Positions 2,690 through 15,916 of a stretch of 64,000 bases of DNA are shown one piece after another. The notes under the pieces are model-generated. The model made no database searches, had not been told where the DNA came from, and saw only the letters and a list, made by a program, of their open reading frames with translations. Position numbers and translations under genes: made by a program. The stretch spans positions 682,001 to 746,000 of the forward strand of contig NC_011295.1 in assembly GCF_000020945.1 (NCBI RefSeq). Direction: 5' to 3'. Positions within the stretch are counted from its first letter, which is position 1, and every line of letters begins with the position of its first letter. Source of the DNA: Coprothermobacter proteolyticus DSM 5265. GTDB taxonomy: Bacteria > Coprothermobacterota > Coprothermobacteria > Coprothermobacterales > Coprothermobacteraceae.

Positions 2690-4039
2690 GTGCATAGTGC
2701 TATTGTACTAGGGGGTGGAGTTGGAAAAAGGTTTAATTCCAAGGTGCCCAAGATAATGCATACACTAGGGGAAAAACCTATTATCTATCACCTTTGGGAC
2801 ACGCTGCAAACAGTAGATGGTATCGAAGAGGTTATATTGGTAACTTCTCCTCAAATTGCCGAGTTACTACCTGATAATGCAAATGTGGTGATCCAGGATG
2901 AGCCCTTAGGAACGGCGCATGCTGCGTTCTTGGGAGCCTCCGTTGCCAAGAATGAGAATGTCATTATTGTCAACGCAGACATCCCCCTTGTTAGAAAGGA
3001 AACATTTTCGACAATGGTGGAATCTTCTTATTCAAGATTGATAGCAGTTACTCGGTTTCCCTTTGAAAGCGATTTTGGAAGAGTTCGATTTGTAGACGGT
3101 CTTTTGCGTCAAATAGTAGAAGTATCTGATTTACGAGATCGGCGCGAAAAAGAAATACCTTTTGTCAATACGGGGGTCTATAAGGCAAGAAAAGAAGACA
3201 TAGTGAATGGTTTTCCGCTTCTTGGCAAGTCCAATGCAAAGAAAGAATATTACATCACGGATTTGTTCAATTTGTTAGCTGAGGATAAAGGAGTACATGT
3301 GCTTTTGTTTGAAGATTGGTCACAGTTCTTGGGTATCAATACTAGACAGGATTTGGCAAGAGTCTTGCATGTTTATAAGCAAAGGCTTCTGGAAAGAATT
3401 ATGGAAGCGGCCACTATTGTGGACCCTGAGAGCACCTATGTGGGTGAAAACGTAAAGGTAGGAAAAGATACAATTATCCTTCCGAATACCACATTACTTG
3501 GTTCGACTGAAATTGGCGAAGATTGTGTAATAGGGCCGAATGTGGAAATAAGAGACTGTGTGATTGGGAACAAATGTGAGATAAAGTTTTCCGTGCTAGA
3601 AGAAGCAACTTTAGAAGACTCAGTCGTTGTTGGACCGTTTGCTCGTATTAGACCGGGAACTTACTTAAAGTCGAGCGCGAGAATCGGTAACTTTGTGGAA
3701 ATCAAGAAAAGTGTTGTGGGTAGTAGGACAAAAATCAACCATCTTTCATACGTTGGGGATGCCGAAGTTGGCGAGGACACCAACATTGGAGCTGGTACGA
3801 TAACCTGCAATTATGATGGCTACAATAAAAACCCAACGATAATCGGAAACAGGGTTTTTATCGGTTCGGACACAATTTTAGTAGCACCTGTTGAACTTGA
3901 GGACGATTCTTTTACTGCTGCAGGTTCAGTTATCACTGAGAAGGTGCCGAAATACGCTTTAGGCATAGGTAGAGCCATGCAGGTTAATAAAGAAGGTTGG
4001 GTGCTTAAGTACAGGAAGAAAAAGGAGATGAACCAGTAA
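2690..4039 (+). CDS. glmU: Bifunctional UDP-GlcNAc pyrophosphorylase / glucosamine-1-P acetyltransferase
   Basis: This 449-residue cytoplasmic enzyme makes UDP-GlcNAc for peptidoglycan. The N-terminal nucleotidyltransferase (about 1-225) begins with the loop LGGGVGKRF, a variant of the usual LAAGxGTRM, and includes EPLGTAHAAF and YYITDLF. The C-terminal left-handed beta helix carries hexapeptide repeats, RIGNFVEIKKS, NHLSYVGDAEVG and the acetyl-CoA-site motif GAGTITCNYDG. The start is GTG, preceded by AAAGGAG at the end of dcd. Its stop overlaps the prs start (TAATG), implying translational coupling. Confidence 0.95.
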   Translation: MHSAIVLGGGVGKRFNSKVPKIMHTLGEKPIIYHLWDTLQTVDGIEEVILVTSPQIAELLPDNANVVIQDEPLGTAHAAFLGASVAKNENVIIVNADIPLVRKETFSTMVESSYSRLIAVTRFPFESDFGRVRFVDGLLRQIVEVSDLRDRREKEIPFVNTGVYKARKEDIVNGFPLLGKSNAKKEYYITDLFNLLAEDKGVHVLLFEDWSQFLGINTRQDLARVLHVYKQRLLERIMEAATIVDPESTYVGENVKVGKDTIILPNTTLLGSTEIGEDCVIGPNVEIRDCVIGNKCEIKFSVLEEATLEDSVVVGPFARIRPGTYLKSSARIGNFVEIKKSVVGSRTKINHLSYVGDAEVGEDTNIGAGTITCNYDGYNKNPTIIGNRVFIGSDTILVAPVELEDDSFTAAGSVITEKVPKYALGIGRAMQVNKEGWVLKYRKKKEMNQ

Positions 4040-8922: not shown

Positions 8923-10118
8923 GAGACATTTTGCCTCCCGAAACCTTTAAATGGCGAAGGTTGGAGATTCTGTTGTCTAAAGCCGCTTTACTTTATGGCT
9001 ATGGTGAAATAAGAACACCCATTTTAGAATTTTCTGAGCTTTTTAGAAAAGGTTTGGGAGACGAAAGCGATGTGGCACTCAAGGAAATGTATGAGTTTGA
9101 GGATAAGAATGGAGATGTGTTGTCCCTACGGCCAGAAGGAACAGCTCCTGTGGCTAGAGCGGTAATTCAACATCACCTCTATGATATCCCCGTACTTAGG
9201 CTCTTTTACACGGGGCCTATGTTTAGGAGAGAAAGGCCTCAAGCTGGGCGATACCGCCAGTTTCATCAATTTGGTATAGAAGCCTTTGGCGTATCCCAAC
9301 CTTACATGGATATCGAAGTACTGCTTGTTGTGAAGAGGATATTCAGTCTTCTCAATTTGCCATTAACCATACATATTAATAGTTTGGGCTGTGATGAATG
9401 CAGACCAATTTACATGGAACAGCTCAGAAATTTCGTACTTTCAGCAATACCTGAAGATGAAGAAATTGAGCGGTTTAAAAAGAACCCTTTAAAACTGTTC
9501 GACTCCAAAAGACCTGAGCACGCTGAAGTAAAGGCTGAGGCACCGAAAATCTCAGAATATCTTTGCCCGGCATGTAAGGATCACTATGCGCACGTTATAC
9601 GAGCAGCGAAGTTGTTCGGAGTCCCCATCGTTGAAGATCCTCAGCTAGCAAGAGGCTTTGACTACTACACTAGAACTGTTTTTGAGGGGTATGTAGGCGA
9701 ATTCAATCTTGCTGTAGTTGGTGGTGGACGATACGACCATTTGGTTTCTTTCTACGGAGGGCCTGACGTACCAGGCATTGGGTTTGCTATTGGTCTAGAA
9801 AGATTGATTACATCCTTAGAAAAAGTGCCAATAATAGACCCAGAGCCGAAGAAAACTTACTTTTTGGCCACTACTGGCGAAGATATGATTGAACCTGCTT
9901 TCCAGTTAGCGGAAAAACTTAGAGATCATGGTATTGGGATAATAATGGATTTACGGCAAGGAAAACTGCAAAAGCAGTTAAAATTAGCTAATAAAGTGGA
10001 AGTTCGGTATGTACTCATACTGGGTGAAGAGGAACAAAGGAACCATGTTATCACATTACGGGATATGGTGACTGGTGAACAGCGCATAGTTGCTCAGGAG
10101 GCGGTTTTAGGTGAATAG
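8898..10118 (+). CDS. hisS: Histidyl-tRNA synthetase
   Basis: A 406-residue class II synthetase charging tRNA-His. It starts MVRNPKGMRDILPPE after an AGGAGGT site at 8883-8889, which sets the start at ATG 8898 inside the mfd end. Motif 2 appears as FYTGPMFRRERPQAGRYRQF, the histidine-specific loop as ARGFDYYTRT, and motif 3 as GIGFAIGLERL. Two cysteine pairs (LGCDECR and CPACKDH) resemble a knuckle found in clostridial HisRS. It overlaps aspS by 8 bases; hisS-aspS is a conserved pair. Confidence 0.96.
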   Translation: MVRNPKGMRDILPPETFKWRRLEILLSKAALLYGYGEIRTPILEFSELFRKGLGDESDVALKEMYEFEDKNGDVLSLRPEGTAPVARAVIQHHLYDIPVLRLFYTGPMFRRERPQAGRYRQFHQFGIEAFGVSQPYMDIEVLLVVKRIFSLLNLPLTIHINSLGCDECRPIYMEQLRNFVLSAIPEDEEIERFKKNPLKLFDSKRPEHAEVKAEAPKISEYLCPACKDHYAHVIRAAKLFGVPIVEDPQLARGFDYYTRTVFEGYVGEFNLAVVGGGRYDHLVSFYGGPDVPGIGFAIGLERLITSLEKVPIIDPEPKKTYFLATTGEDMIEPAFQLAEKLRDHGIGIIMDLRQGKLQKQLKLANKVEVRYVLILGEEEQRNHVITLRDMVTGEQRIVAQEAVLGE

Positions 10119-11838
10119 AATCTACATCGGCGATGTGAAAAATGTGAAATTGGATTCAGTTGTAGAATTGTGCGGTTGGGTACAGTATGTTAGGGATTTC
10201 GGTAAGGTTGTATTTTTTGTCATAAAAGATAGGACAGGCATTATTCAGTGCTACACAAGTACACAAAGTGAAGAACTCCTGGAGCTAGTCAAAAAACTGT
10301 CCATAGACGACGTGGTCCGCGTCCGAGGCACGGTAAAACGGCGTCCAGAAGATCAGATTAATCCAAATATGGAAAACGGCGATATTGAAATCGAAGTAGA
10401 GGATTTCGAAGTTTTGAATCCATGTGCGCCTTTGCCTTATGATGTTAACGGAGAGCCCAGTGAATTTACTAAACTCAAGTACAGATATGTGGACATAAGG
10501 CATGGGGAGTTGCTAGCGAACCTAAAGACTAGGAGTGTTGTATCTTCAGTTATCAGAAATTATCTCTCGCGAAAGGGCTTTTGGGAAATAGAAACGCCTT
10601 ATTTGACCAAGTACACACCAGGAGGAGCACGAAATTTCGTGGTACCAGTGAGACAGCAACCTGGTTATTTTTACGCTTTGGCTGAAAGCCCGCAAATATT
10701 CAAGCAAATGCTTATGATAAGTGGTGTAGATAGGTACTTTCAGTTTGCTCGCTGCTTTCGTGATGAAGATCTTCGCGCTGATAGGCAACCTGAATTCACT
10801 CAGGTAGATATAGAAGCTTCTTTTGTCACAGAAGAGGACATATATGATCTAGTTGAAGGCATGATGCAAGAGTTATTCAGGGAAGTCTTGGGAGTACAAG
10901 TGGAGACGCCTTTTCCTAGGATGACCTACGATGAAGCCATGTCTTTGTACGGTTCTGACAAACCTGATCTGCGTTTCCAAATGACTATAGACGATTACAC
11001 AAACAGTTTCTCAACCAGCAAGTTTAATGCATTTAGAAATGTCATTGAACGTGGCGGTGTAGTAAAAGGTTTGTACTGGAATAAGCCCTTAGATCGATCT
11101 GCGCTGAAGGTGTTGGATCAAGCTGCATCTGGTAGCGGGAATAAGTTTTTGTTTGTGAGTAAATCAGCCAATGGTTTGCTAACCAACGGACCAAAATCTG
11201 TATTGACTGAGGAAACTTGGCTCGAAGACGGAACATATGTTTTTGCCGCAGGGGACGAATGGGATGTGCTGCCGTTCTTGGGAGAGTTAAGACTGGCTTT
11301 AGGCGAGTACTTAGGCTTGTTAGACGATAACGAATATAAGTTTGTCTGGGTGACCAGTAGACCCATGTTCGAAATAGCTGAGGATGGATCGCTACAGGCT
11401 GCCCATCATCCGTTCACTATGCCTGATGTCACCTCTATCGATGAAATTAGGAAAGATCCATTAAAGGTAAGGGCGAGAGCATACGACATTGTTCTAAATG
11501 GCGTTGAAATAGGTGGAGGAAGCATAAGGATACATAAAGCTGACCTTCAAAGGGTGGTTTTCGAAATTCTTGGTTTGAGTAGTGAGCAAATAGAGGAAAG
11601 ATTTGGGTTCTTCCTGGATGCTCTGTCATGTGGTGCTCCACCTCACGGAGGCATTGCTCTAGGGTTTGACCGGCTTGTTATGCTCCTTTGCGGAGCAGAT
11701 AGCTTAAGGCAAGTTATTGCTTTTCCAAAGACCAAATCGGGGACATGTCCACTCACAGGTGCCCCTGCAAGATTGTTCGCTAGTCAACGTCAGGAACTGT
11801 TACCTATATTCAAACAAGTTGTTGAGGAGGGTGGTTAG
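10111..11838 (+). CDS. aspS: Aspartyl-tRNA synthetase
   Basis: A 575-residue bacterial-type class II synthetase. The N-terminal OB-fold anticodon domain covers about 1-105; motif 2 is FRDEDLRADRQPEFTQ; a GAD insertion spans roughly 290-400; motif 3 is GIALGFDRLVML. GTG 10111 is the start, with CAGGAGG just upstream in hisS. Whether it is strictly specific for tRNA-Asp or also charges tRNA-Asn cannot be decided here. The stop is adjacent to the small RsbW-like gene. Confidence 0.95.
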   Translation: MNRIYIGDVKNVKLDSVVELCGWVQYVRDFGKVVFFVIKDRTGIIQCYTSTQSEELLELVKKLSIDDVVRVRGTVKRRPEDQINPNMENGDIEIEVEDFEVLNPCAPLPYDVNGEPSEFTKLKYRYVDIRHGELLANLKTRSVVSSVIRNYLSRKGFWEIETPYLTKYTPGGARNFVVPVRQQPGYFYALAESPQIFKQMLMISGVDRYFQFARCFRDEDLRADRQPEFTQVDIEASFVTEEDIYDLVEGMMQELFREVLGVQVETPFPRMTYDEAMSLYGSDKPDLRFQMTIDDYTNSFSTSKFNAFRNVIERGGVVKGLYWNKPLDRSALKVLDQAASGSGNKFLFVSKSANGLLTNGPKSVLTEETWLEDGTYVFAAGDEWDVLPFLGELRLALGEYLGLLDDNEYKFVWVTSRPMFEIAEDGSLQAAHHPFTMPDVTSIDEIRKDPLKVRARAYDIVLNGVEIGGGSIRIHKADLQRVVFEILGLSSEQIEERFGFFLDALSCGAPPHGGIALGFDRLVMLLCGADSLRQVIAFPKTKSGTCPLTGAPARLFASQRQELLPIFKQVVEEGG

Positions 11839-11842
11839 TGGG

Positions 11843-12166
11843 TTGATAATAGAGCTCTGTATTCCGTGTTTAGAGGAATATAGCTTACTCTTGCAGAAGG
11901 TTGTTGCTGGAGTAGGCCAGATATGGAATTTGGATTTAGATAAGTTTTTTGAACTAAGCTTGGTCGTTATGAAGGCCTTTGAAGGCACTACGAAAAGCGC
12001 TGGTTCAGGCAACTTTCGTCTCAGATTGTCCCGTTTAGACGAGGATACGATGCAGGTTGACATTGAAAGCGACAAGACAATTGACATGGAGACCTATAGA
12101 TTGTTTTTACTACCTTACATTACTCAGGAACTTGAGAGATATAGGAAGGTCATCTTGCACTTATGA
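11843..12166 (+). CDS. Degenerate RsbW-like (anti-sigma) protein
   Basis: A 107-residue protein immediately before a SigB-type sigma factor, overlapping it by 4 bases (ATGA). Its layout resembles the first two thirds of the RsbW/SpoIIAB GHKL fold: an opening IIELCIPCLEEYSLLLQKVV, a helix DLDKFFELSLVVMKAFEG, then strands NFRLRLSRLDEDTMQVDIESD. The expected N box (E-x-x-x-N) reads K-A-F-E-G, so the catalytic Glu and Mg-binding Asn are absent, and no G boxes follow. It is probably a non-catalytic partner of the sigma factor. The start is TTG 11843, placed by GAGGAGGG at 11824-11831; the GTG at 11831 is too close to that site. The function is an inference from position and shape. Confidence 0.55.
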   Translation: MIIELCIPCLEEYSLLLQKVVAGVGQIWNLDLDKFFELSLVVMKAFEGTTKSAGSGNFRLRLSRLDEDTMQVDIESDKTIDMETYRLFLLPYITQELERYRKVILHL

Positions 12167-12894
12167 CAGAGAAGGAGAAAAAACTAGCGTGGGAGCTTCT
12201 TGAACGGTATGCGGAAACAAGGGATCCTCGCATACGTGACACGCTTTTTTTAATGTATAAGCCGCTTGCAGATTCTGTGGTAAATAGATTTGCTCCTTAT
12301 CAGATAGATAAGGATGACTTGCGACAGGAAGCATACCGTGCATTGGTTGATGCAATTGATCGATTCAACCCGTCGTATGGGAACTTGTTTGAGACTTTTG
12401 CTATTCCGACCATAGTGGGTAATCTTAAGCGCTATCTGAGAGACTATGGGTGGGCGATTAGCGTGCCTAGGAGTATGGTTGATATGGCCTATAGCATCCA
12501 GAAAAAGCTTCCTGAGATAGCCGAAAAATTGGGTCATGAACCCACCATAAAAGAAATAGCTGAAGAACTTGAGTTGGACGAAGAGCAGGTTAGTGAAGTA
12601 CTTGCAATAATGGCAGTTAAGAATACGTCTAGCATAGATTCTAAAATTACCGATGAGAGTGACACCACAGGTGAAGAACTATTGGGACTCCTGAGTGATC
12701 GAGATTTGGAAGATGAAGCTCTGTTGGAGATAGCAGTGTCAGAACTACCTGAACCTGAACGTTTTATAATTGAAAAACGCTTAGAAGGTCTCTCTCAAAG
12801 TGAAATTGCAAAGCTTTTGAATATTTCGCAAGCTCAAGTCTCACGTTTCGAAAGAAAGGCAATTACTAAGTTAAAAGAGGCCATACATGGATAG
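12163..12894 (+). CDS. RNA polymerase sigma factor, SigB/SigF/SigG group
   Basis: A 243-residue group 3 sigma-70 factor. Region 2 includes DKDDLRQEAYRALVDAIDRF and the DNA-melting FETFAIPTIVGNLKRYLRDY, followed by a typical SVPRSM linker. Region 3 contains EKLGHEPTIKEIAEEL, and region 4 ends in the helix-turn-helix GLSQSEIAKLLNISQAQVSR. The preceding RsbW-like gene is translationally coupled, matching the rsbW-sigB/spoIIAB-sigF arrangement. Whether it directs a stress response or another programme cannot be seen. No alternative promoters could be assigned to it within the window. Confidence 0.88.
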   Translation: MTEKEKKLAWELLERYAETRDPRIRDTLFLMYKPLADSVVNRFAPYQIDKDDLRQEAYRALVDAIDRFNPSYGNLFETFAIPTIVGNLKRYLRDYGWAISVPRSMVDMAYSIQKKLPEIAEKLGHEPTIKEIAEELELDEEQVSEVLAIMAVKNTSSIDSKITDESDTTGEELLGLLSDRDLEDEALLEIAVSELPEPERFIIEKRLEGLSQSEIAKLLNISQAQVSRFERKAITKLKEAIHG

Positions 12895-13912
12895 GAAAAA
12901 CCTGATGAAGGTCATTCTTCAAGGCGAAGCTGCTTTTTTGCTCATGGCTTTCGCCTTCTATCTTGTAGTTCGAAACCTGTCAACTATTTACGGGTGGATT
13001 GTTTTCTTAGCGTGGCTTACGTTTGCAATGTATGTCGTTGAAGCAGCAGCAAGGTTATTCAAGGTGCAAAAAAGGTTTGCTGCTTTGGTCGGGGTGATAA
13101 CTGCTATCCTGTTGCTTATAGGATTGGGGATATCCATTTTTTATCTAATTCAGAGTATTATTCCACCGTTAACGAAAAGTATTGAGAACCTCGTAGCGTA
13201 CTTACCGAAGCTTCAAGAAACGGTTGGGGAATGGGCGCAGAGAAGCGATGTTCTAACAAGGGTTTTAGACGAGATCTCAAGTGAGCTTCAGTCGTTGGTA
13301 GGTGCCGAAACAGTGAAAAACGTGCTTTTGACTGTTGGTAGATTCGTCACTTCATCTGGTGGCAGCCTTTTTCAAATTACACTAGCTGTGTTAGTTTCAG
13401 GTCTTCTTATACCTTACAAGGACAAACTTGTCAATTTCGCTGACCGTAAGCTGCCTGCTGCAAAATTCAAGCAGCTTGATGTAATGCTTGGGCAATACGC
13501 TCTACAGCGTTTGGTTAGTGGTTTTGCGCTCGGTGTAGTTCTCTTCATTGGCAATATCATAATCCTGAGGAATGGTGGCATGGCTTTGGGAATAGCAAGC
13601 CTGGCCTTTGTCTTGGATTTTATTCCTTATGTGGGGCCCTTTTTTGCTTTTATCATCAATGCCATTGTTGTTTTAGTTGTTTCGCCTAAGTGGCTGAGTT
13701 TACTCCTTAGCTTGATTATCTTTTTGACTGGGCAAGGTGTAGAACAGTTAGTAGCAGCTACCATGGCGAGTGTGCAGTTCTCCATTCCGTTTATCGTGGC
13801 CATTGCGTTAGTGATTTTTGGTGGTGTGGTAGCTGGCGTTCCGGGGCTCATACTCGGAGTACCTATTGGTGCCTATCTTATCAATCTGTGGAGTAAGCCG
13901 AAAGAGATATGA
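12887..13912 (+). CDS. AI-2E family (PerM-like) membrane permease
   Basis: A 341-residue polytopic inner-membrane protein with hydrophobic segments at about 10-50, 65-90, 150-175, 205-240, 245-275 and 285-330, the usual AI-2E topology, with a soluble region between. Conserved features include the SSGGSLFQITLAV segment and the FIPYVGPFFAF turn. Members export diverse substrates; the substrate here is unknown. It overlaps the sigma gene by 8 bases and ruvX by 4. Confidence 0.82.
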   Translation: MDRKNLMKVILQGEAAFLLMAFAFYLVVRNLSTIYGWIVFLAWLTFAMYVVEAAARLFKVQKRFAALVGVITAILLLIGLGISIFYLIQSIIPPLTKSIENLVAYLPKLQETVGEWAQRSDVLTRVLDEISSELQSLVGAETVKNVLLTVGRFVTSSGGSLFQITLAVLVSGLLIPYKDKLVNFADRKLPAAKFKQLDVMLGQYALQRLVSGFALGVVLFIGNIIILRNGGMALGIASLAFVLDFIPYVGPFFAFIINAIVVLVVSPKWLSLLLSLIIFLTGQGVEQLVAATMASVQFSIPFIVAIALVIFGGVVAGVPGLILGVPIGAYLINLWSKPKEI

Positions 13913-14322
13913 TTGTCGCTGTGGATTTTGGGCTAAAGAGAATTGGTATGGCACGGAGTGATGATAGTGAGACATGGGCTTTTCCACATAAAACACTGGA
14001 AGGGAACGATTTGGAAACGAAACTCATTATCGAGCTGAAGAAAATCGGACCGAGGGTGGTAGTTTTGGGACTTCCCAGAAACATGGACGGGACTGAAGGG
14101 GAGATGGCTGTAGCAGTTCGAGCTTTAGGTCAGCGTTTGGAGGATGTTGGATTCACTGTGGATTTTTGGGACGAGAGGCTTACGTCTAGGTTGGTTTCTC
14201 GTCAAGACCCGCGAAGCTTGAAAAAAGCGATAAAAGATAAGGGTAAGGTTGATTTGATGTCAGCTGTGCTAATATTACAGGAGTATATTAATGCGAGGAG
14301 GAGAACAAATGAACCACAATGA
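13909..14322 (+). CDS. ruvX: Pre-16S rRNA nuclease / RuvX (YqgF)
   Basis: A 137-residue RNase H-fold protein. It begins IVAVDFGLKRIGMARSD, carrying the first catalytic Asp, then has VVVLGLPRNMDGTEG and FWDERLTSRLV with the conserved acidic residue, and a late DLMSAVLILQEYI. YqgF proteins mature the 16S rRNA 5' end; the Holliday-junction name is historical. The start overlaps the previous stop (ATGA). The DUF1292 gene follows, as in Firmicutes. Confidence 0.92.
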   Translation: MIVAVDFGLKRIGMARSDDSETWAFPHKTLEGNDLETKLIIELKKIGPRVVVLGLPRNMDGTEGEMAVAVRALGQRLEDVGFTVDFWDERLTSRLVSRQDPRSLKKAIKDKGKVDLMSAVLILQEYINARRRTNEPQ

Positions 14323-14636: not shown

Positions 14637-14870
14637 GTGTTCAAGATTGAACTGATTTTAGGAAAAGCTGATGTAGGCGTTGTACAGACTTTGATTGAAG
14701 GGCTGGACAACGCCTATTCTATGATGGGGACTAGCCGTATCTCGGATGACAACTACAGAATGACTCTTCAAGCTACTAGCTTTTGCCTAAAAGAACTTAT
14801 TTCAGTTATTCTCAGCTGCATGCTGCAGGGAAATGTGAAGTCCTTCTTAGTTACCACTTGGGAAGACTGA
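14637..14870 (+). CDS. Small hypothetical protein before the pilus ATPase
   Basis: An open frame of 77 codons from GTG 14637, ending 2 bases before the TTG of the PilB-like gene. The product starts MFKIELILGKADVGVV and has a cysteine-containing helix CLKELISVILSCML. I do not recognise a family. There is no good ribosome site before the GTG. It fills the only gap between DUF1292 and pilB on the coding strand, so a real gene is likely but its start is uncertain. Confidence 0.45.
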   Translation: MFKIELILGKADVGVVQTLIEGLDNAYSMMGTSRISDDNYRMTLQATSFCLKELISVILSCMLQGNVKSFLVTTWED

Positions 14871-14872
14871 CG

Positions 14873-15916
14873 TTGGACAACAATACCTTTAACACAAGCC
14901 TCTACGGCGGTATAAATGATTACGTAGCTGCAGCCCACGAATTGGCGGCTTCTGATCTTCACTTTGTTCCAGCCGCTGATCGTGTAAATGTTTTCACTCG
15001 CACTAACGGTGATATGCACTTTCAAGGTGCCATTAACCACAGCGAATACGATCGATTGCTTAATGCTTTCAAGTTCTCGAGTGGGTTAGACGTTGCTGAC
15101 AGCAGAGTTCCACAAGATGCACGATTATCTATGCCTACCAGAGATGGCACGTTATTCCTGCGCGTTTGTATCTTACCTACAGTTCATGGAGAATCCTTAA
15201 CATTGAGGTTACCAACTAAGGACCAGTATGCTTCCTTTGTCGATCTGGGCATGGATTCCAAGCAGGCTGCTTCGTTCGAGGAAGCGATCAAGTATGGTAA
15301 GGGAATTGTGTTAATAACTGGACTGACAGGCTCAGGCAAGACTTCTACGTACTATACAACATTGAGGTTCTTGCAGAACGATGGCATGAAGATCATTAGC
15401 CTCGAAGATCCTGTGGAACAGTTCTTAGATGGTGTAGTGCAAGTGGAGGTGGGGGAAGAGGTTGGATTTGGATACAAAGAAATAATTAGATCGGCGCTAA
15501 GGAGTGACCCTGATGTCATAGCAATTGGAGAAATAAGGGACGAAGAAACAGCCAGGGCGGTTATCAACGCGGCTTTTTCGTCACGTCTAGTCATTGCCAC
15601 TATGCACAGTCGTGACCTATCTCATGCACTCAGGAGGCTCTTGTACTTTGGAGTTTTGGCCCAAGACATAGAAGCCACTATTTCTTTTTTGATTCATCAG
15701 CGGCTGATCACCTTACGAAGCAATGAAAAGATGTACCGGACAGCTGTTTTTGCAGTAAAAGATGGTGCTATTAGCTGCTCACAGCCTTTTCTGGGAGAGC
15801 TCACAAGTCTCACCTACGATTGCATCTGCCGTCGGCTGGGGAATTATTCACACTTTGGTCAAGAAATTGTTAAAATTGATAGTGATTTGGAGGGGATAGC
15901 CTTTGGACATTTTTGA
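14873..15916 (+). CDS. Compact PilB/GspE-like secretion ATPase
   Basis: A 347-residue ring ATPase of the type II secretion/type IV pilus superfamily. It has the Walker A GLTGSGKTSTY, the Asp box ISLEDPVEQFLDG, Walker B DPDVIAIGEIRDEETA, and the His box ATMHSRDLSHA. It lacks the large N-terminal domain and the tetracysteine zinc motif of full PilB (about 560 residues). It is more PilB-like than PilT-like because of its Asp box and its place beside a separate pilT, so it may be the extension motor. The TTG start at 14873 has a GGGAAG site ahead; a longer frame exists upstream but overlaps the small gene. Confidence 0.78.
   Translation: MDNNTFNTSLYGGINDYVAAAHELAASDLHFVPAADRVNVFTRTNGDMHFQGAINHSEYDRLLNAFKFSSGLDVADSRVPQDARLSMPTRDGTLFLRVCILPTVHGESLTLRLPTKDQYASFVDLGMDSKQAASFEEAIKYGKGIVLITGLTGSGKTSTYYTTLRFLQNDGMKIISLEDPVEQFLDGVVQVEVGEEVGFGYKEIIRSALRSDPDVIAIGEIRDEETARAVINAAFSSRLVIATMHSRDLSHALRRLLYFGVLAQDIEATISFLIHQRLITLRSNEKMYRTAVFAVKDGAISCSQPFLGELTSLTYDCICRRLGNYSHFGQEIVKIDSDLEGIAFGHF

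Follow-up and report, generated by a model that had tools for sequence, protein, structure and literature searches.

An RsbW-like protein without kinase motifs precedes a SigB-type sigma factor in Coprothermobacter proteolyticus, in a phylum with no detectable STAS antagonist

Introduction

In the textbook scheme, SigB-type sigma factors are controlled by ATP-driven partner switching. In Coprothermobacter proteolyticus DSM 5265, a SigB/SigF-type sigma gene is directly preceded, as would be expected of RsbW or SpoIIAB, by a gene for a small protein in which the kinase parts seem to be missing. This locus raises two testable questions: whether ATP is dispensable for an RsbW fold to hold a sigma factor, and what would open that hold. 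As the sigma factor and its RsbW-fold neighbour outlast both the kinase chemistry and a detectable antagonist, the minimal part of the switch becomes open to test. The stretch analyzed, called the window below, is 64 kb long and corresponds to bases 682001–746000 of a genome that is 99.5% complete and assembled in one contig of 1,424,912 bases.

Results and discussion

A conserved gene pair

The features of the locus are collected in Table 1.

Table 1 The RsbW-like/sigma gene pair and its neighbours, in window coordinates.
Feature	Coordinates	Strand	Remarks
aspS, 5′ neighbour of the pair	10111..11838	+	
G-box-less RsbW-like gene, 107 aa	11843..12166	+	TTG11843 start, TGA12166 stop
Helix 2 stretch at the RsbW N-box position, residues 42–56	11966..12010	+	Alignment to RsbW
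SigB/SigF/SigG-type sigma factor gene, 243 aa	12163..12894	+	ATG12163 start
AI-2E family transporter, 3′ neighbour of the pair	12887..13912	+	PF01594 E 1.6e-20
Neighbour, presumably ruvX-like	13909..14322	+	Similar ORFs matched in related loci

Translation of the RsbW-like gene could also begin at an in-frame GTG at 11831, and the sigma start lies inside its stop codon, giving a four-base ATGA overlap. The small gene adjoins the sigma gene in all five Coprothermobacteraceae genomes, with the same four-base overlap in each, and the other four copies are 94, 82, 59, and 48% identical to the window copy. Its dN/dS was 0.073 and 0.085 in the two computable pairs, a third pair being saturated. Because it stands beside the sigma gene throughout the family and shows dN/dS values of 0.07–0.09, this ORF is a real gene under purifying selection.

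The best NCBIfam match of the sigma factor was SigBFG (TIGR02980, E 3e-56, 190.6 bits, under the cut-off of 234), and its nearest named relatives among the matches listed were Coprothermobacter records (97% and 89% identity). The Sigma70 region 2 model exceeded its cut-off at seven places in the genome. The sole other genomic match to this sigma factor at 1e-10 was G000:635168, taken as the primary sigma factor, judged by its 385-aa frame. No SigF-like promoter pattern was found directly 5′ of the pair; in the whole window this pattern had 6 matches (3.1 expected; at least as many in 6 of 100 shuffles), and consensus promoter sites around the pair were near chance (15 versus 11.8).

Shortly 3′ of this neighbourhood lies a type II/IV secretion ATPase gene with a TTG start (14783–15916; PF00437, E 1e-67), followed by more genes on the plus strand.

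The window protein is predicted to have the RsbW fold

AlphaFold2 modelling of the window protein with 55 sequences gave a pLDDT of 89.7 and a pTM of 0.84, and modelling with only the five Coprothermobacteraceae sequences gave the same elements (pLDDT 87.3, pTM 0.81), in order a strand, two long helices, two strands, a helix, and strands. RsbW was the top PDB match of both models in Foldseek (E 3e-6). In VIA-align, the 55-sequence model matched RsbW best (Z 13.5, 100 residues, 2.2 Å), then UsfX (Z 13.1, 105 residues, 2.2 Å) and SpoIIAB (Z 12.7, 104 residues, 2.5 Å), ahead of SiaB (Z 9.9), LvrC (Z 9.8), and histidine kinases (Z ~6); the top order was the same for the five-sequence model. The protein is thus predicted to have the Bergerat/GHKL alpha-beta fold of RsbW minus the ATP-lid region. 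An earlier note on this DNA, made from the sequence alone, had seen in it the front of the RsbW fold and had proposed structure prediction against SpoIIAB/RsbW as a check. The models bear out the GHKL fold, with RsbW, UsfX, and SpoIIAB as the best PDB matches, but not the restriction to its front: the C-terminal helix and strands are present, and it is the lid region that is missing.

The resemblance to RsbW was not apparent in single-sequence searches, in which the window protein alone had no useful match in Pfam, NCBIfam, or the PDB. A GlcV_C_terminal match (E 0.2) was taken as noise. It did emerge from profile comparisons. A profile of 51 RsbW-like sequences, built without Coprothermobacteraceae since an earlier iteration had absorbed their sequences, scored the window protein at 12.8 bits (E 0.019 in a set of 3,440 ORFs and the test sequences), where the best of 5,000 shuffles reached 10.0. 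Likewise, hhalign of the family against the RsbW-like class gave 92.9% over 94 columns, the best of 200 column shuffles giving 47%; against two Lithacetigena-type sequences alone it gave no match. Identity to class members outside the family, drawn from the best 80 of 508 loci described below, is 12–22%. Judged by these comparisons, the window protein is a very diverged member of the G-box-less RsbW-like class.

Elsewhere in the phylum, the syntenic ORF of two more distant genomes resembles B. subtilis RsbW (6m36) over the N-box helix (E 0.0021) and the NCBIfam RsbW model (E 3.5e-7, under cut-off). Within the same order, two genomes, G005 and G006, carry a different ORF, of 125 aa, immediately 5′ of the syntenic sigma gene (L019 2231–2608, minus strand; L020 1056–1433, plus strand), and no sequence relation of this ORF to RsbW or to the G-box-less class was found. 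The phylum's nine small ORFs aligned poorly in MAFFT, and no claim is based on that alignment.

A class of G-box-less RsbW-like proteins with a shared neighbourhood

A profile scan with an alignment of the nine syntenic sigma factors gave 80 loci, the best 80 of 508 confirmed, and the fractions below therefore describe near relatives of this sigma factor only. In 55 of these best 80 of 508 loci, the end of an RsbW-like ORF falls within a span from 250 bases ahead of the sigma match start to 10 bases past it, and in 54 the ORF directly 5′ of the sigma gene is G-box-less. The sole intact RsbW among the 55, at L082 (Caldalkalibacillus), was excluded from the motif counts. The class found in this way spans Actinobacteria, Chloroflexi, Tissierellia, and Coprothermobacterota. 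The other 25 of the best 80 have no RsbW-like ORF at this place; a STAS-like ORF was seen by eye at L075 and L109.

The two sets of loci, again from the best 80 of 508, also differ in their surroundings. An aspS gene lies 5′ of the pair in 19 of the 55 loci with an RsbW-like ORF versus 0 of the 25 without, an AI-2E transporter gene 3′ of it in 27/55 versus 0/25, and an alaS-like gene within 3.3 kb 3′ in 27/55 versus 0/25, all of these counts being lower bounds owing to contig ends. This aspS/AI-2E/alaS neighbourhood, shared by many of the class loci, points to a common ancestry of the entire pair in Coriobacteriia-type Actinobacteria and Coprothermobacterota, although transfer may also account for it.

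Searched against the PDB, the class profile matched RsbW 6m36 (E 2.5e-25), Mycobacterium tuberculosis UsfX 8jzt (E 2e-14), and SpoIIAB (E 2e-7), and the UsfX chain has neither the Asn nor the G boxes in the part aligned to the profile. The class is therefore broad and has a relative whose function is known, and it ties mycobacterial UsfX to an old-looking neighbourhood common to Actinobacteria and Coprothermobacterota.

In four Tissierellia loci (L095, L128, L134, and L135, ~3290–3985), from Anaerococcus and a Peptoniphilaceae MAG, a STAS gene directly precedes a G-box-less RsbW-like gene, which is followed by a SigB-type sigma gene, a partner-switching arrangement that includes a kinase-free RsbW and lies outside the Actinobacteria.

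Loss of the kinase motifs

Residues are given in RsbW numbering, which by our own count is the residue number in the 6m36 chain plus 4. At the N-box, RsbW Glu49 is replaced by Lys (Lys44 in the window protein) and Asn53 by Gly (Gly48 in the window protein) in all five family sequences. In the same sequences the alignment has gaps across G1, another sequence takes the place of G2, and the ATP-lid region is absent from the predicted model of the window protein. The loss of the N-box Glu and Asn and of the G boxes, already read from the single sequence in the earlier note, thus holds across the family. Asn53 is kept in none of the 50 other class members (from the best 80 of 508 loci). To judge from these motifs, the window protein should have no capacity to phosphorylate anything.

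No detectable STAS antagonist and no docking residues

The absence of an rsbV-like gene next to the sigma gene, also remarked on earlier, extends to the whole genome as searched with the STAS models. Neither STAS (PF01740) nor STAS_2 (PF13466) had a match over cut-off in any of the nine phylum genomes, while each exceeded it in 11 of the 14 control genomes. Four of the nine genomes are less than 90% complete, the window genome being at 99.5% in one contig. Three weak matches under the cut-off occurred in the phylum (E 0.049, 0.06, and 0.42), the first of them inside an ABC-transporter ATPase-like ORF. The SpoIIE-type phosphatase was over cut-off in 0/9 phylum genomes. STAS was over cut-off in 46 of 49 other class genomes (best 80 of 508 loci), the three without being those of L073, L076, and L097.

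The RsbV–RsbW crystal shows bonds to RsbV from RsbW Arg23, Asp42, Lys44/Ser48, Glu49, and Tyr118, of which Arg23 and Glu49 hydrogen-bond RsbV and Glu49 contacts the phosphorylated serine; in the model of its authors, RsbV and SigB occupy separate surfaces of RsbW (PMC7340262). Class members from the best 80 of 508 loci keep four of these contacts almost without exception (Arg23 and Glu49 in 50/50, Asp42 in 49/50, and a basic residue at Lys44 in 47/50). The five Coprothermobacteraceae sequences have Gln or Glu for Arg23, Lys for Glu49, Glu for Asp42, and Ser or Thr for Lys44, so that Arg23 and Glu49 are kept in 0/5. As the five sequences are one lineage, this loss counts as one event. Two MAGs, Lithacetigena (G008) and Psychracetigena (G007), have no STAS match over cut-off yet keep Arg23 and Glu49, and the loss of STAS and that of the contacts are therefore not always joined. 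In Coprothermobacteraceae, as far as these models and alignments reach, a detectable STAS antagonist and its docking residues are both gone.

A proposed kinase-free lock and its alternatives

We consider it likely that the window protein acts as an ATP-independent anti-sigma factor for the downstream SigB-type sigma factor, released by something other than RsbV. Translational coupling through the four-base overlap would supply the two proteins in near-equal amounts. The protein, folding like RsbW without an ATP lid and presumably dimerising like it, would sit on the sigma factor and keep it from RNA polymerase. The sigma factor would probably be held by a simpler, kinase-free lock. With the detectable STAS genes and the docking residues gone, it would have to be freed in another way, and an RsbV-type release in Coprothermobacteraceae appears unlikely. 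Release might come from proteolysis, a non-STAS partner, a ligand, or heat. That the whole phylum pairs a SigB-type sigma factor with an RsbW-fold anti-sigma factor without ATP, kinase, or STAS antagonist, as a two-protein lock answering to a signal other than phosphorylation, is an extension that we entertain but would lean slightly against. If true, partner switching would here be reduced to that lock.

The protein could instead be an anti-sigma factor of the UsfX/RsbW1 type that still switches partners, its STAS-like antagonist having diverged beyond the reach of the Pfam models. The mycobacterial relatives of tested function do use STAS antagonists (PMC7693655), STAS is over cut-off in 46/49 class genomes, and a STAS gene stands directly 5′ in the four Tissierellia loci (best 80 of 508). 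However, the phylum-wide lack of matches over cut-off, against the detection rate in the controls, and the loss of the RsbV contacts Arg23 and Glu49 make this reading unlikely.

A second alternative is that inhibition has been lost and the protein now stabilises or helps the sigma factor, as a chaperone-like protein or constant buffer acting on folding or stoichiometry. Six of the eight class-conserved charged positions are changed (18, 27, 36, 39, 44, and 95), the charge type being kept at 33 and 37; as these changes go beyond the RsbV contacts, the sigma-facing surface may also differ. No antagonist that would free the sigma factor was found with the STAS models, and purifying selection and the overlap show that the protein matters, which would suit a helper too. 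Against this, the protein has the fold and gene order typical of anti-sigma factors, and we know of no RsbW homologue of such kind that activates its own sigma factor. We regard this alternative as improbable, and keep to an inhibitory partner as the preferred reading.

A full RsbW homologue serving this sigma factor from elsewhere would, according to the earlier note, tell against a kinase-free control. None stands next to the sigma gene, but the genome does hold an intact RsbW/SpoIIAB-like GHKL ATPase (G000:175432–175884; L001 1426–1878), with N and G boxes recognisable by eye. HATPase_c_2 exceeds its cut-off once in the genome, in this protein (match at 175507), with a second, weaker match at 178926. 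The protein at 175507 also matches SpoIIAB TIGR01925 (E 6e-11, under cut-off), so it might be the true kinase or anti-sigma factor, with the small protein an accessory. However, it lies ~518 kb from the sigma pair and adjoins an iron-sulfur hydrogenase-like gene; a similar GHKL protein in G007 has an extra N-terminal part and a like setting; and a genome of the sister genus (G004, 95% complete) keeps the pair, while only frames of 357 and 532 aa match the domain there. Because of the hydrogenase-like neighbour and the lack of a protein of such size in the sister genus, the homologue is not clearly one for this sigma factor; that it is its kinase seems very unlikely, and the proteins at 175507 and 178926 are taken as belonging to another system. 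The presence of a full RsbW/SpoIIAB-like ATPase in a genome without detectable STAS makes its substrate puzzling.

Finally, a decaying, functionless rsbW remnant would fit the lost motifs and the low identity to the class outside the family, but is hardly conceivable with such low dN/dS values, the same overlap in five genomes, and a pLDDT near 90.

Relation to known systems

A kinase-free RsbW is already known: M. smegmatis RsbW1, the closest UsfX homologue, binds and inhibits SigF and lacks kinase activity, the kinase there being RsbW2, which carries N, G1, and G2 motifs (PMC7693655). With this precedent, freedom from kinase activity does not in itself make a new kind of RsbW. The Coprothermobacter protein is like mycobacterial RsbW1/UsfX (PDB 8jzt, 8ih8) in having the RsbW fold, with no G boxes in the aligned chain, and in being encoded in one operon with the SigB-type sigma gene that follows it (PMC7693655 and PMC10950880 for RsbW1/UsfX). 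It differs in that RsbW1/UsfX retains the Arg and the Glu and is released by RsfA/RsfB, which are STAS antagonists, whereas in Coprothermobacteraceae no STAS match was found over cut-off and both residues are lost.

With Bacillus RsbW (for SigB) and SpoIIAB (for SigF), the protein shares the fold, the gene order before the sigma gene, and the sigma class. Unlike it, those two bind ATP, act as serine kinases, carry N, G1, and G2 boxes, and have a partner (RsbV or SpoIIAA); none of these features was found in the Coprothermobacter case. SpoIIAB also has an arginine, Arg20, with a role in sigma binding, on which nothing here is based. Also close in setting is the class of Coriobacteriia and allied Actinobacteria, whose members also lie 5′ of a sigma gene (34–40% identical), in the same aspS/AI-2E/alaS neighbourhood, and without G boxes; Coprothermobacteraceae differ from it in the docking residues (Arg23 and Glu49, 50/50 in that class) and in STAS (46/49 genomes there, both counts from the best 80 of 508 loci). 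The new part is a kinase-free RsbW without any detectable STAS antagonist, across a whole phylum. A literature search found no work on the Coprothermobacter pair or on a STAS-less RsbW; one article, PMC6198496, contains both Coprothermobacter and RsbW.

In the Lithacetigena/Psychracetigena MAGs, two small ORFs precede the RsbW-like gene (L018 2599–3160, minus strand, and L081), which we take to be YtxH-like and DUF948-like.
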